From NCBI GenBank assembly GCA_025057135.1, contig JANWXY010000047.1, positions 1-50,039 on the forward strand: DNA of 50,039 nucleotides, in the 5' to 3' direction. Each line of letters opens with the position of its first letter. The first letter of the stretch is position 1. The translations under genes were made by a program, and so were the position numbers. This document shows positions 30,723-39,669 of the stretch, piece by piece. The notes under the pieces are model-generated. The model was not told the origin of the DNA. It ran no database searches and saw only the letters and a program-made list of their open reading frames with translations. This DNA comes from Bacteroidia bacterium. GTDB taxonomy: Bacteria; Bacteroidota; Bacteroidia; SpSt-205.

Positions 30723-31661
30723 TCAATAGGGGACTGTGTTGAGCAGTTCCGTTATGAAGCTGTCGGTGCGGATATTTTCTGCAATAGCCACATAGGAGAG
30801 TATAATCCGATGCCTTAATACGGCATGTGCGATGGCCTTTATATCTTCTGGCAGTACCATGGCTCGTCCCAATAAAAAAGCCCGAGCGCGTGCTGCTCTA
30901 TGAAGAGCAAGTCCAGCTCTGGGAGAAGCACCGTAAGCGATTTTACCTTTCCATGCCTTGAGACCGATAGTCTCGGGAGAACGGGTCGCTCTAACCAGCC
31001 GCACGATATACTGCTCTAAGCGAGGTGCAACTTCTATTCGGGTGGCTTCTTCTTGATATTCCAAAATTTTCTTAGCGGAGAGAAGGGGTGGGGGTAATTC
31101 AGGATAGATGCGTCGAGCCCACCGTCTCAAAACTTCTTCTTCTTCTTCTGCGGTGGGGTATTCCACCTCTATCCGGAAGAGGAAGCGGTCAATCTGAGCT
31201 TCGGGGAGAGCGTAAGTCCCTTCTTGTTCTATGGGGTTTTGGGTCGCAAGTACCCAGAAAGGGCGCATAAGAGGGTAAGTTTCATCCCCTAATGTGACTT
31301 GCCCTTCCTGCATGCATTCTAAGAGGGCGCTCTGTACCTTGGCCGGGGCGCGGTTAATCTCATCGGCTAAAAGTACTTGAGTAAATATCGGACCTTTCCG
31401 CACAGAGAAGCGTCCCGGCCCTTCATACACTAAGCCGCCTGTCAGGTCAGAAGGAAGCATGTCAGGGGTAAATTGCACGCGACGAAACTCTAGCCCAGAT
31501 AAACGAGCCATGGTACTCGCCATGAGAGTTTTGGCTACACCGGGAACGCCCTCTAAAAGTACATGCCCCCCTGCGATTAGAGCAGTCCATAAATGCTCCA
31601 GCGTTCCTCGCTGTCCAATGATGACCTGTTGTGCAGCGCTTATAAGCTGCTCTAATAGCAC
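30723..31661 (-). CDS. MoxR family AAA+ ATPase (GTG start proposed at 31661; ORF-track start 31694 is the alternative)
   Basis: GGHVLLEGVPGVAKTLMASTMARLSGLEFRRVQFTPDMLPSDLTGG...LLADEINRAPAKVQSALLECMQEGQVTL...PEAQIDRFLF. CATATTTG box 4 nt before the GTG. Confidence 0.92.
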   Translation of the reverse strand: MLLEQLISAAQQVIIGQRGTLEHLWTALIAGGHVLLEGVPGVAKTLMASTMARLSGLEFRRVQFTPDMLPSDLTGGLVYEGPGRFSVRKGPIFTQVLLADEINRAPAKVQSALLECMQEGQVTLGDETYPLMRPFWVLATQNPIEQEGTYALPEAQIDRFLFRIEVEYPTAEEEEEVLRRWARRIYPELPPPLLSAKKILEYQEEATRIEVAPRLEQYIVRLVRATRSPETIGLKAWKGKIAYGASPRAGLALHRAARARAFLLGRAMVLPEDIKAIAHAVLRHRIILSYVAIAENIRTDSFITELLNTVPY

Positions 31662-31665
31662 CGCG

Positions 31666-31673
31666 CAAATATG
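31666..31673 (-). promoter_or_regulatory. CATATTTG box, 4 nt before the proposed moxR GTG
   Basis: Spacer 31662-31665; depends on the GTG start. Confidence 0.45.
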
Positions 31674-31692
31674 TTTATTTTGCTGTATATTC

Positions 31693-34365
31693 ATGTGGAA
31701 AGTCCTCGCCTTTTTCGCGTTACCTGCTTTATGGGCGACTCATGGGCTTGCAGGCCAAATAACCTATACGTATATCGGACCGAACCGATATCGGGTGACC
31801 GTTACGTATTATTCGGACTCAGCGGCAGCCGGAGTGGATCGCTGCTTTATAGATATGGAAGTTTGGAGTATCGTAGGAAATACCAAGACGCTCGTCAATA
31901 CCTATACGGGGATTCCTCGGGCGAATGGTCCCTTGGGTTCAGGCTGCAGCGCCCCCGCTCGGATTGGAGTGACACTCCGTCCCAGAGTCAAACGCAGTGA
32001 TTATGTCGTGGAAATAACTCTCCCAGGTCCGGGTCTATACGAGCTGCGTTTCTCCGATTTTGCTCGGGTGGAAAATGTCCGTAATATGACAAACTCGGTA
32101 GCGACTTCGTTTTACATAGAAACCCTTCTCAATAACAACCCCTTCATCGGTACGAACAACTCTCCTATCCTTTTGAATGACCCTATAGACGATGCTTGCA
32201 CAGGGCGGTTATGGACCCATAATCCAGGCGCATATGACCCTGATGGAGATTCTCTGGTATTTAGTCTAATACCCTGCCAGCAATATGATCCAGCTACGAT
32301 GCAGAATCCCATACCTGTGGCTAACTATCGCTTCCCCGACGCTTTTGGGGGGGCCTTTGCTATAGACCCAAGAACAGGTCTGATTACTTGGAATACCCCT
32401 CAGCAAGTCGGCGTATATAATATCGCTATCCTTATAGAAGAGTACAGAAATGGACGCCGGATTGGGTACGTGATTCGGGATATGGCGATATTCGTTTTCC
32501 CCTGTCAAAACCGTCCCCCAGTCATTCAAGCCCCCGCTGAAACCTGTATCACGGCAGGGCAGCGCCTCAGCTTCCGAGTACAGGCTAATGACCCTGATCC
32601 CACAGACAGCATCTACTTTTATCTAAACAACGCGGGCCTGGGATTTAATGGACCTTTTCAAGCTCAGCCCAGTCCCGCCACCATATCGCCCAGTAGTTTC
32701 CCTCTGGTTGGGTATAATCCTCCTATTGTGAGTGCTCTATTTAGCTGGCAGACTGTGTGTGCCCACATCCGAGCAAACTTCTATCAGATAGACTGGTACG
32801 CCCACGATAACTTTCGGAATCGTCCACCGCTGGCAGCGAATGCGGTCACCCGTATATATGTCATTGGTCCTCCACCTACTGGCCTGACTTTGACGCCTGG
32901 TCCGCGACAGATTACCCTTACTTGGCAACCGCCTTCCTGCCCCCCAGATGTGTATGAGATATACCGCTCGCCGACTTCTCAGTCGTATGTAGATACCCCA
33001 TGCTGTCGTAGCCCCCTCGTCGGATATGAACTCATCGCCATCGTACCTGGAAATCAAACTACTTATACAGATGCTAACATAGAGTTTAGTCCGAGGTATT
33101 GCTATCGTTTGCGGGCTCGTTATAGGGGGAGTCTTAGCTGTCCCAGTGAAGAGGTTTGCATAGACCTGCCTCTGAACTTTCCTATTATGCTTCAAGATAG
33201 CGTTCATACTACCGATGCACAAAATGGGGCTATACTCGTGGCATGGCAGGCACCACTCGTTCTGGATACGACTTTTTTCCCTCCACCTTACAGCTATGCG
33301 CTGGAGAGGACGACCGGCTTCACGAACGCTACATTTCAAACAATCGCCACCGGCCTTAGCACCGATAGGTACTTGGACCAGGCAGGCCTCTCAACCAGTG
33401 CTCAGCCATATCGGTATAGGGTACGACTTTACGATGGTACAGGACGAGAGGTCGTCTCCAGTAATACAGCAACGAGCATTTTCTTGACTGTATCCCCGAG
33501 GGACGGAGCTCTTTTGCTTCGGTGGGAGCAGAATGTGCCGTGGGTGAATGATACCTTTTTCATTTACCGAGCGAATCCCCCTCAGCCAGGGGCTTTCAAT
33601 AGGATTGCTGCTATACCGGTGCAGGCCGCAGGACGACAAGTATTTACTTACTTAGATCAAGGGCTCACTAATGGGCAGACGTACTGTTACTACATTCTAA
33701 GCCGTGGAGACTACGGCGTCGCAGGTATTCGCTCTCCGCTCTGGAATGCTTCTAACACTGCCTGCGAAGCTCCCCGAGATACCACTCCGCCTTGCTTGCC
33801 TGATCCCACGACTTATCAGATAGAGTCAGACTGCGAAAACTACACGATAGATATCCGCTGGGCAAGGCCCGATAGTAGCTGCGGTGGCGATGTGGGAAGT
33901 TATGGGGTCTATGTCGCCTCCAATCCCGAGGGTCCGTATTCCCTTATTCAATATGTGCAGGAGCCCCAAAGGCATTTTACTTGGCGTGCTCCTACCACAC
34001 TCAATCTCTGTATAGCTCTTAGCGCCCGAGATACCAGCAATAATGAGAGCCCACTGAGTGCTCCTATTTGCTTTGATAACTGTCCTGTACTCATGCTCCC
34101 CAATACCTTTTCTCCCAACGGCGACGGCATTAATGATGTTTTCCGTCCCTTCATTTATCGCAATATTCGCTCTATTCAGTGCTGGATATATGATAGATGG
34201 GGTATGCTTGTCGCTCAAAGCCGAGATATAGAGAATCTCTGGGATGGCACCCATAAAGGGCGACCTGCCCCTGAGGGAACCTACTTCTTCATGATAGAGG
34301 CGGAGCTGGACACTCGGGAAAAGCGAACTTTCCGGAAAGCAGGGTCAATCACACTTTTACGCTGA
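31693..34365 (+). CDS. Large secreted protein with fibronectin-III-like segments and gliding/T9SS type B (CHU_C) C-terminal domain
   Basis: Signal MWKVLAFFALPALWATHGLAG; C-terminus LPNTFSPNGDGINDVFRPFIYRNIRSIQCWIYDRWGMLVAQS...WDGTHKGRPAPEGTYFFMIEAE. Confidence 0.88.
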   Translation: MWKVLAFFALPALWATHGLAGQITYTYIGPNRYRVTVTYYSDSAAAGVDRCFIDMEVWSIVGNTKTLVNTYTGIPRANGPLGSGCSAPARIGVTLRPRVKRSDYVVEITLPGPGLYELRFSDFARVENVRNMTNSVATSFYIETLLNNNPFIGTNNSPILLNDPIDDACTGRLWTHNPGAYDPDGDSLVFSLIPCQQYDPATMQNPIPVANYRFPDAFGGAFAIDPRTGLITWNTPQQVGVYNIAILIEEYRNGRRIGYVIRDMAIFVFPCQNRPPVIQAPAETCITAGQRLSFRVQANDPDPTDSIYFYLNNAGLGFNGPFQAQPSPATISPSSFPLVGYNPPIVSALFSWQTVCAHIRANFYQIDWYAHDNFRNRPPLAANAVTRIYVIGPPPTGLTLTPGPRQITLTWQPPSCPPDVYEIYRSPTSQSYVDTPCCRSPLVGYELIAIVPGNQTTYTDANIEFSPRYCYRLRARYRGSLSCPSEEVCIDLPLNFPIMLQDSVHTTDAQNGAILVAWQAPLVLDTTFFPPPYSYALERTTGFTNATFQTIATGLSTDRYLDQAGLSTSAQPYRYRVRLYDGTGREVVSSNTATSIFLTVSPRDGALLLRWEQNVPWVNDTFFIYRANPPQPGAFNRIAAIPVQAAGRQVFTYLDQGLTNGQTYCYYILSRGDYGVAGIRSPLWNASNTACEAPRDTTPPCLPDPTTYQIESDCENYTIDIRWARPDSSCGGDVGSYGVYVASNPEGPYSLIQYVQEPQRHFTWRAPTTLNLCIALSARDTSNNESPLSAPICFDNCPVLMLPNTFSPNGDGINDVFRPFIYRNIRSIQCWIYDRWGMLVAQSRDIENLWDGTHKGRPAPEGTYFFMIEAELDTREKRTFRKAGSITLLR

Positions 34366-34368
34366 ACC

Positions 34369-34998
34369 ATGTTCTCAGGAATAGTAGAAGCAATAGGTAT
34401 TGTAAGGGCGATTGAAACAGTGGCAGCGGGAAGGCGGCTTTGGATTCAAGCCCCTTTCGTAGAAGCTCTATCTCTCGGTAATAGCGTCGCTCATGATGGG
34501 GCATGCCTCTCGGTAATCGCTATCAAGCATCGTTTCTATTGTGTAGAAGCCGTTCAAGAGACCCTCAATCGTACCACCCTCGGAGACTTAGACCTCGGCG
34601 ATAGCCTCAACTTGGAGCGGGCTCTTCCCGTCTCTGCCCGATTAGAAGGGCATCTCGTACAAGGGCATGTAGATACGGTCCTCGAGGTCTTAGATGTCAC
34701 AAAAGTCGGTGGTGAAAGTTTCTACTTTAGCTTTTCCCTTCCGGAGCAATGGGCACCATATGTAGTGGAAAAAGGCTCTATTGCTATCAATGGGGTCAGT
34801 CTGACTGTGGCTGGGGTAGAAAAAGGAGCCTTCCGAGTAGCGATTATTCCATGGACTTATCAGCATACGACCTTCTCCCAGTTAAAACGAGGGTCCAAGG
34901 TAAATGTAGAGTTTGATATCATTGCTAAGTACCTGTGGCACTGGACACAAGCATACGGGGTACAGCTCTCCAAAGGAGCGTCACATTTATCTAAATAG
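34369..34998 (+). CDS. ribE: Riboflavin synthase alpha subunit
   Basis: MFSGIVEAIGIVRAIE...NSVAHDGACLSVIAI...LEGHLVQGHVDTVLEVLD...GSIAINGVSLTVAGV. Confidence 0.95.
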   Translation: MFSGIVEAIGIVRAIETVAAGRRLWIQAPFVEALSLGNSVAHDGACLSVIAIKHRFYCVEAVQETLNRTTLGDLDLGDSLNLERALPVSARLEGHLVQGHVDTVLEVLDVTKVGGESFYFSFSLPEQWAPYVVEKGSIAINGVSLTVAGVEKGAFRVAIIPWTYQHTTFSQLKRGSKVNVEFDIIAKYLWHWTQAYGVQLSKGASHLSK

Positions 34999-35005
34999 GC
35001 GGTCC

Positions 35006-35815
35006 ATGCAGACTTATTATGATCTATTTGGATTGCCTTTTGGGGCGCCTGAAAGTCAGGTCAAGCAGCGCTATCGTGAGTTGGCCAAGCGTTTCCATCC
35101 TGATGTCAATCCTTCTCCTGAGGCGGCTCATCAAATGCAGCTTCTGAATGAAGCATATCGCATTCTGACGACCCCCCATTTGCGGCTGGCTTATCATTTG
35201 CGCATGCTTGCCTTAATCAAGCGGCAAAAAGTCCGTATGTCTGCTGAAGCCCAGGCTCATCGCGTGTTGCATGTTGAATCTGCACGGAGCGGCATTCATC
35301 TCGTTCTTTTACCGCTTATCGGTGTGGTAGTGGCGGCTGCCCTTACCTACCACTGGATGCACCCGTTTCCTTTTCAAAAGCTTGACTTGCGCCGTTTTCA
35401 GCTCAAAAAGCTTCCTTCTTATCTGTACCTTCCGACTTCTATCCAGCGAATAGACCTTTCATATAACCGATTTACAAGCATACCCTCTGAGATTGAAAAA
35501 CTCCCCCTGCTTGCCAGCTTAAATATGTCCCACAATCGGCTGAGGGAGCTTTCTTCACGGATTGCGTACCTCCATCGGTTAGAGGAGTTAGATTTGTCTC
35601 ATAATCAAATTTCTGCTCTGCCGCTTGGTATCGGCGAGATGATGCGACTGCGGCGGCTTTATTTGCGCGGAAATCGTCTTACTGACCTTCCCGAAGAGCT
35701 GTTTCTTCTCCCAAATATAGAGCTACTGGATGTAAGAGATAATCCCCTCTCTCCTACTGCTCGAGATAGGCTGCGAAACTTTCAGGCAAATACTACCTGC
35801 CAGGTCATGTGGTGA
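35006..35815 (+). CDS. J-domain / transmembrane helix / leucine-rich-repeat fusion protein
   Basis: MQTYYDLFGLPFGAPESQVKQRYRELAKRFHPDVNPSPEAAHQMQLLNEAYRIL (HPD present); TM HLVLLPLIGVVVAAALTYHWM; LRRs SIQRIDLSYNRFTSIPSEIEKLPLLASLNMSHNRLRELSSRIAYLHRLEELDLSHNQISALP. Start trimmed from 34913. Confidence 0.88.
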   Translation: MQTYYDLFGLPFGAPESQVKQRYRELAKRFHPDVNPSPEAAHQMQLLNEAYRILTTPHLRLAYHLRMLALIKRQKVRMSAEAQAHRVLHVESARSGIHLVLLPLIGVVVAAALTYHWMHPFPFQKLDLRRFQLKKLPSYLYLPTSIQRIDLSYNRFTSIPSEIEKLPLLASLNMSHNRLRELSSRIAYLHRLEELDLSHNQISALPLGIGEMMRLRRLYLRGNRLTDLPEELFLLPNIELLDVRDNPLSPTARDRLRNFQANTTCQVMW

Positions 35816-38273: not shown

Positions 38274-39119
38274 TCAGAAATCCTGCAAAGTAGGTGGAAG
38301 CTGGGCAATTGCCCGCTCATATTCGGGGGGGGCGGGCGCCTTACCATGCCAGCGATAATCATTTTCCATGAAGTCCACGCCTTTACCCATCGTCGTATAG
38401 GCGATAATCATGACAGGCTTTCCTTTGCCTGAGAGCGAAACAGCCTCTCTGAGAGTAGAGAGGATTGCAGGGAGGCTATGGGCCTCATACAGAGAGAGCG
38501 TTTCCCAACCAAAGGCTCGCCATTTCTCTTCTAAGGGGTCTGTATTCAGAACATCTCGGGTGTCACCGTCTATCTGCTTATAGTTGCGGTCTGTAATCGC
38601 TATGAGATTATCTACCCGATGGTGTGCAGCAAAAAGGGCGGCTTCCCATATTTGTCCCTCGTTGGATTCTCCATCCCCTATCATTACATAAACGAGGTGG
38701 GGGTCTTTTTGAAGCTTTTTGCCCAGGGCTATTCCAATAGCGACTGAAAGCCCCTGTCCCAATGACCCGGTAGCGATTCTGACGCCTGGGAGTTTTTCCT
38801 TAGTCGCGGGGTGTCCTTGGAGGCGGCTATTTATCCGACGAAAGGTTTTTAGCTCCTCTATCGGGAAGTATCCACTTCGCGCAAGGACGGAATACCATGC
38901 AGCGCAAATGTGCCCATTGGAGAGGATGAAGACATCTTCGCCTATGCCATCCATAGAAAAAGGATAAGGTTTATGGCGCATATGAGCGAAATAAAGAGCC
39001 ACGAAAATGTCCGCTGCTCCGAGTGCTCCGCCTGGGTGTCCTGACTGAGCGGCATATATCATTCGTATAGCATCTCGACGCACCTGGGCAGCGATTTTTT
39101 CTAACTCTTGTATGTCCAT
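38274..39119 (-). CDS. Transketolase N-terminal subunit (split transketolase)
   Basis: SGHPGGALGAADIFVALYF...ATGSLGQGLSVAIGIALGKKL...YVMIGDGESNEGQIWEAALFAAHHRVDNLIAITDRN. ATG at 39119 preferred over TTG at 39128. Confidence 0.92.
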   Translation of the reverse strand: MDIQELEKIAAQVRRDAIRMIYAAQSGHPGGALGAADIFVALYFAHMRHKPYPFSMDGIGEDVFILSNGHICAAWYSVLARSGYFPIEELKTFRRINSRLQGHPATKEKLPGVRIATGSLGQGLSVAIGIALGKKLQKDPHLVYVMIGDGESNEGQIWEAALFAAHHRVDNLIAITDRNYKQIDGDTRDVLNTDPLEEKWRAFGWETLSLYEAHSLPAILSTLREAVSLSGKGKPVMIIAYTTMGKGVDFMENDYRWHGKAPAPPEYERAIAQLPPTLQDF

Positions 39120-39125
39120 GCACCT

Positions 39126-39133
39126 CAAAGTTA
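39126..39133 (-). promoter_or_regulatory. TAACTTTG box, 6 nt before the transketolase N-subunit ATG
   Basis: Exact TAnnTTTG on the minus strand. Confidence 0.6.
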
Positions 39134-39144
39134 GTCAGAGCGCT

Positions 39145-39152
39145 TACTTTTG
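39145..39152 (+). promoter_or_regulatory. TACTTTTG box, 4 nt before the EGF-lipoprotein GTG
   Basis: Exact TAnnTTTG; spacer 39153-39156. Confidence 0.6.
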
Positions 39153-39156
39153 TAGT

Positions 39157-39669
39157 GTGAGATACTTCTGGTTTTGGATACTTGGTTTCAGTATAGGCTT
39201 CTGGGGGGGCTGTAAGCGCGGCTCATGCGAGGGGGTAGAGTGCCTAAATGGTGGTAGGTGTCGAGGGGGACGATGCGACTGCCCGGTTGGATTTGGAGGG
39301 GGGCGCTGCGAGCAGAAATGGAGTGATGGATGGGTCGGTAACTACACTGTGGATGACCGTTGCCGGGTCGTAGGGCTTATACCTCAATACAATGCCACTA
39401 TATCGCCCTCCAGCATTTATCCAGATGTGATTTATCTTGAAGGTTTCGGAGATATACGATGCGAAGGGCAACCCTTGCGGGTGGAAGCCCGGCTTATCAG
39501 TGCCGACCGCATAGAGATCGGCCGGCAGAGTAGCTGCAATCGCCGTTATACGATAGAAGGCAGTGGTTGGCGCAACTCAGACTACCGTATTATTACCGTG
39601 GAGTATTACTATCATGACTTTCAAACGGGGCTCAGAGACACTTGTAGGGCGGAGTGGCGCCGTTACTGA
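39157..39669 (+). CDS. Lipoprotein with EGF-like domain (GTG start proposed)
   Basis: (M)RYFWFWILGFSIGFWGGC lipobox-like signal; EGF pattern CEGVECLNGGRCRGGRCDCPVGFGGGRC. Confidence 0.78.
   Translation: MRYFWFWILGFSIGFWGGCKRGSCEGVECLNGGRCRGGRCDCPVGFGGGRCEQKWSDGWVGNYTVDDRCRVVGLIPQYNATISPSSIYPDVIYLEGFGDIRCEGQPLRVEARLISADRIEIGRQSSCNRRYTIEGSGWRNSDYRIITVEYYYHDFQTGLRDTCRAEWRRY

Follow-up and report, generated by a model that had tools for sequence, protein, structure and literature searches.

In a 50,039-nucleotide stretch of Bacteroidia DNA (here referred to as the window), we identified a gene for a 269-amino-acid protein whose N-terminal J-domain is connected through a single transmembrane helix to a domain of leucine-rich repeats (LRRs). 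This J-TM-LRR architecture is rare. On balance, sequence and structure prediction lead us to favor the reading that the product would be a membrane-tethered J-protein docking DnaK at a partner chosen by the LRR domain. Its role as a DnaK co-chaperone appears highly probable, and the LRR domain would probably serve as the partner-docking module. Bacterial membrane-bound J-proteins are few, and their client choice is unclear.

The gene (35006..35815, 269 amino acids plus stop; like all features given below with coordinates in this form, on the forward strand) was delimited by ORF calling and by its homologues. As the first-pass annotation had described, it begins with a J-domain with an intact HPD motif: residues 3 to 63 (35012..35194) match Pfam DnaJ (PF00226, E = 3.4e-15), with AlphaFold2 (AF2) helices at residues 16 to 30 and 38 to 55, and the motif occupies residues 31 to 33 (35096..35104). 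The basic linker and single transmembrane segment described there were also recovered. The linker, poorly conserved, covers residues 64 to 93 (35195..35284), and the helix, supported by hydrophobicity, alignment and AF2, covers residues 94 to 118 (35285..35359). Residues 96 to 114 have a Kyte-Doolittle value of 2.31, compared to 0.93 for the next-best segment, and an uninterrupted hydrophobic segment of 19 to 25 residues is found at the same position in all other members examined. The helix is followed by a YHWxHPF-type juxtamembrane motif conserved in the window's family.

The LRR domain, predicted to be periplasmic, spans residues 124 to 249 (35375..35752) and was recognized by Pfam LRR_8 and LRR_4 and by its Leptospira-like solenoid. 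Several LRR families matched, LRR_8 (PF13855, E = 1.7e-22) in four stretches, and both DnaJ and the principal LRR families scored above their curated cut-offs; the tandem repeats (LxxLxLxxNxLxxLP type), together with the modeled solenoid fold, place the protein among LRR proteins. The initial count of about four to five repeats is corrected to five, with a further, sixth strand and a helix forming a cap. The C-terminal cap (residues 250 to 269; 35753..35812), modeled as a helix at 250 to 262 and a strand at 266 to 268, can be aligned even in distant members.

In the AF2 model, which was built with 11 homologues, helix 94-118 lies between the J-fold and a complete LRR solenoid with its capping helix and strand. 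Mean pLDDT was 88, with both domains mostly at ∼90 or above, and pTM was only 0.56. Since this pTM is accompanied by pLDDT values below 50 in linker residues 85 to 93, the model gives no placement of the domains relative to each other. The best PDB matches of the LRR part, by both sequence and fold, were LRR proteins of Leptospira.

Near-full-length homologues (44 to 58% identity) were present in all 11 other family genomes examined (ten of the window's genus and one of another genus), and every one of them has kept the HPD motif and the transmembrane segment. Because the full layout is kept in 12/12 family genomes, we exclude a chance origin of the architecture, or a misread ORF, and conclude that this is a real gene. 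A read error fusing two genes was also ruled out, as the same single-frame fusion occurs in independent assemblies, including a single-contig genome of 2.27 Mb. One homologue (G006, L012:1489-2298) carries an in-frame TGA just after the transmembrane segment, which may reflect a pseudogene or an assembly error. The relatives are MAGs of Bacteroidia (SKYB, SKW and KatS3mg series), whose names may indicate a hot-spring habitat.

More distantly, the same architecture was found in two other Bacteroidia families, in three genomes in total. These proteins show 25 to 30% identity, their DnaJ and LRR domains were confirmed by Pfam, and the HPD motif is invariant across all aligned members, distant ones included. 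With no more than six candidates per genome scored, and at strict E-values, by which very divergent members may be missed, a class-wide sample of 395 genomes yielded the full architecture in the window's family (12 genomes) and family f49 (2 genomes) only, another class-wide sample of 394 genomes, overlapping the first, had the same outcome, and a phylum-wide sample of 398 genomes contained no carrier other than the window. The order of G059 contributed one further family, f80 (G395, E = 1.2e-42). A TM-LRR fragment at a contig end in G012, which represents a third other family and belongs to the window's order (L154:1573-2019), is probably a truncated copy of this protein, its J-domain cut off where the contig stops. 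In a J-domain pattern scan that also reached beyond Bacteroidota, matches outside the window's family covered the J-domain region only. No paper describing a DnaJ-LRR fusion was found in the open-access literature, which, together with the rarity in the class and phylum samples, agrees with the initial impression that the architecture is not a standard one. We also considered a phage or mobile origin and rejected it: none of the plasmid or phage records aligns over 80% of its length, and the listed matches extend over the J-domain or the LRR domain only.

Conservation is uneven along the protein. Mean column entropy was 0.69 bits in the J-domain, the most conserved part, 1.43 bits in the LRR domain and 2.09 bits in the linker; within the LRR domain the C-terminal repeats are better conserved, and exposed positions vary among homologues. 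In a J-domain tree the window's family forms a supported clade, the J-domain being too short to place this clade among other J-TM proteins, and the J-domain and LRR trees, with their long branches, give no answer as to a single origin of the fusion across families.

Directly upstream of the gene lies ribE (34369..34998; riboflavin synthase, Lum_binding). The start ATG of the J-TM-LRR gene is 7 nt past the ribE stop codon, and the two genes are probably co-transcribed in the window genome. An upstream ribE is seen in only four family genomes, all of one subclade; in seven loci of another subclade the homologue is adjoined by a divergent gene for a putative capsule-assembly (Wzi-like) protein, and ubiA lies near the homologue in G008 and three genes downstream of it in G059. 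Comparison of the family loci revealed no conserved signaling operon or partner gene beside the homologues. The J-TM-LRR gene belongs to the core of the window's family as a single gene, with changing neighbors and outside any fixed operon. With neighbors varying, we dropped a conserved operon as a functional clue, and since none of them is conserved across subclades, the neighborhood does not indicate a partner. Upstream of ribE, positions 31459-34365 encode a large protein that combines a fibronectin type III domain with a CHU_C type IX secretion signal; because this ORF overlaps on the opposite strand with a MoxR-like gene, translation probably begins at a site far inside it. Another ORF (39112-39669) encodes a putative exported protein of 185 amino acids with one EGF-like cysteine motif, CEGVECLNGGRCRGGRCDCPVGFGGGRC, for which Pfam gave only a weak teneurin-EGF match below the cut-off.

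The J-domain had been assigned to the cytoplasm and the LRR domain to the periplasm by the positive-inside rule. This argument holds over 30 residues and family-wide only. Across 14 related proteins, whose rows are not independent, the 30 residues before the helix contain on average 5.9 K/R compared to 3.1 after it (Wilcoxon P = 0.003), and net charge is +5.4 on the N side compared to +1.6 on the C side (Wilcoxon P = 0.001). The window protein taken alone shows little difference (7 K/R before the helix versus 5 after it, within 30 residues), and its 15-residue flanks are equivocal (2 versus 2). The window genome has one strong full-length Hsp70 match (8.8e-259) and one weak partial match (2.4e-7); with one clear DnaK, a J-domain on the outside would have no evident partner, and the J-domain is therefore probably cytoplasmic. 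Bacterial LRRs can be cytoplasmic. Here, a periplasmic location is favored by the Leptospira matches and by the LRR relatives in class Bacteroidia, which begin with apparent signal peptides as judged by eye. Each of these lines is weak alone; taken together, charge bias, single DnaK and LRR relatives favor a J-domain inside and an LRR domain in the periplasm, and we regard the predicted periplasmic location of the LRR domain as likely.

We thus picture the protein as a class C J-protein of the inner membrane that is bitopic (type II), with its J-domain facing the cytoplasm. DnaK recruitment, already proposed in the first-pass annotation, would follow from the intact HPD motif and established J-protein biochemistry, by which the J-domain would stimulate the DnaK ATPase. 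The flexible linker and the single predicted helix would tether the J-domain to the inner membrane, while the LRR solenoid would bind one envelope or membrane partner from the periplasmic side. DnaK could then be loaded onto cytoplasmic parts of the partner's complex, leading to its assembly, remodeling or protection, and the LRR domain would provide client or site choice by location, not by binding unfolded chains. As the window genome has one strong Hsp70 and also encodes separate soluble DnaJ-type and CbpA-type proteins, the J-TM-LRR protein would be an extra, specialized J-protein. A conserved J-domain and a more variable LRR domain fit a fixed DnaK output combined with a recognition surface that may drift or follow its partner.

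Other explanations account for part of these observations. The LRR domain had initially been suggested to act as a sensor, which was not borne out by the higher variability of the LRR domain relative to the J-domain or by the genomic neighborhood. In its developed form, this idea describes a transmembrane LRR receptor with Hsp70 output: an envelope-stress or other external ligand would bind the periplasmic LRR domain, the helices would cluster, and the clustered J-domains would recruit DnaK for a cytoplasmic response, so that an extracytoplasmic ligand would directly control the place or the timing of DnaK action on the inner membrane. LRRs are a common ligand-binding fold, and many members have small-xxx-small patterns in the transmembrane segment, although these are missing in several members and are frequent by chance. 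For DjlA, the transmembrane segment is cited as a dimerization domain, and DjlA overproduction is reported to induce Rcs (PMC11709261). Yet no conserved signaling partner gene adjoins the homologues, and the variable LRR surface speaks against one strictly conserved ligand, a point that also weighs against our preferred reading. We therefore consider ligand-gated sensing by the LRR domain unlikely and the complete receptor scheme doubtful; constitutive docking or tethering needs fewer assumptions. If a ligand-gated LRR did exist, it would be a direct link from the envelope to Hsp70.

Constitutive tethering might also be unspecific, with a J-domain that serves nascent or translocating proteins in a Sec63-like logic and an LRR domain that is only a wall or outer-membrane anchor or a folding cap. 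The far stronger conservation of the J-domain, the status of a core family gene at changing loci and the existence in the class of J-TM proteins that carry a different C-terminal domain or lack one are all in line with such a general membrane tether for DnaK. The LRR domain and its end cap have nevertheless been retained at full length by every intact member and also in two additional families, which argues for a specific role and makes the general tether improbable in our judgment. Still less probable is an arrangement with both domains in the cytoplasm, where the helix would be re-entrant or peripheral and the LRR domain would bind clients directly. The protein has a single hydrophobic segment only, and in the window protein K/R residues occur on the LRR side too, but the strong, uninterrupted helix in all members, the family-wide charge asymmetry and the apparent signal peptides on LRR relatives in the class point the other way.

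Among known systems, the J-TM-LRR protein is a class C J-protein by its predicted domain content: it has a J-domain with HPD, whereas the DnaJ zinc finger and C-terminal substrate-binding domains are absent, DnaJ and LRR being its only Pfam families. E. coli DjlA is likewise membrane anchored, with a single transmembrane helix and a cytoplasmic J-domain, and cooperates with DnaK at the inner membrane (PMC11709261), features that are predicted for the J-TM-LRR protein. DjlA has no specific substrate-binding domain; its membrane anchoring, its J-domain and DnaK are all required for Rcs induction, and it weakens the IgaA-RcsD interaction (PMC11709261). DjlA consists of an N-terminal transmembrane segment, a TerB-like middle domain and a C-terminal J-domain with almost nothing in the periplasm (PMC11709261), whereas the J-TM-LRR protein has an N-terminal J-domain, a folded LRR domain beyond the helix and a predicted inverted topology; Pfam found no TerB match in it. 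The protein is thus not a DjlA, differing in domain order, topology and accessory domain, but it would be DjlA-like in working principle. In the E. coli class C proteins DjlB and DjlC, too, a cytoplasmic J-domain precedes the transmembrane segment, but they are described as tail anchored and paired with the Hsp70 HscC (PMC8215388), whereas the J-TM-LRR protein has an LRR domain of ∼150 amino acids past the helix and DnaK as the only clear Hsp70 in its genome.

For the LRR domain, the closest solved structures are the Leptospira proteins LIC12759, LIC11098, LIC10831 and LIC12234 (about 28 to 36% identity); the matches cover the LRR domain only, and those chains have no J-domain in these comparisons. 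A related LRR array with a C-terminal cap occurs in secreted LRR proteins of Bacteroidia linked to ribF. These secreted-type proteins of ∼200 amino acids (L016-L022, L126-L129, L131, L135-L139 and L141) have an apparent cleavable signal peptide, usually an SPxCxC ending and no J-domain, and the J-TM-LRR protein does not belong to this family; no second LRR protein of the ribF-linked type was found in the window genome. In 18 of the 22 loci checked, the secreted LRR gene had a gene carrying the RibF motif (GxFDGxHxGH) within about 1.5 kb, and this association of a secreted LRR protein with FAD synthetase is widely kept in Bacteroidia.

In the eukaryotic membrane J-proteins Sec63 and ERdj1, a transmembrane helix also parts the J-domain from a partner-binding domain, as in the J-TM-LRR protein, but partner domains and compartments are unrelated. 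Closer to hand is a broad set of Bacteroidia proteins with an N-terminal J-domain followed by at least one transmembrane helix (L143, L144, L145, L146, L147 and L148), a layout that the J-TM-LRR protein shares, and whose C termini vary. Pfam recognized DnaJ only in the five that were scanned. L143, L144, L147 and L148, for example, have the N-terminal J-domain, linker and helix in common with the J-TM-LRR protein but end in a short tail, a second transmembrane segment or a non-LRR domain. Such differing C termini make it plausible that the distal parts attached to a membrane J-module can be exchanged. The membrane J-module is known from other Bacteroidia proteins, and the attachment of LRRs to it is the unusual part.
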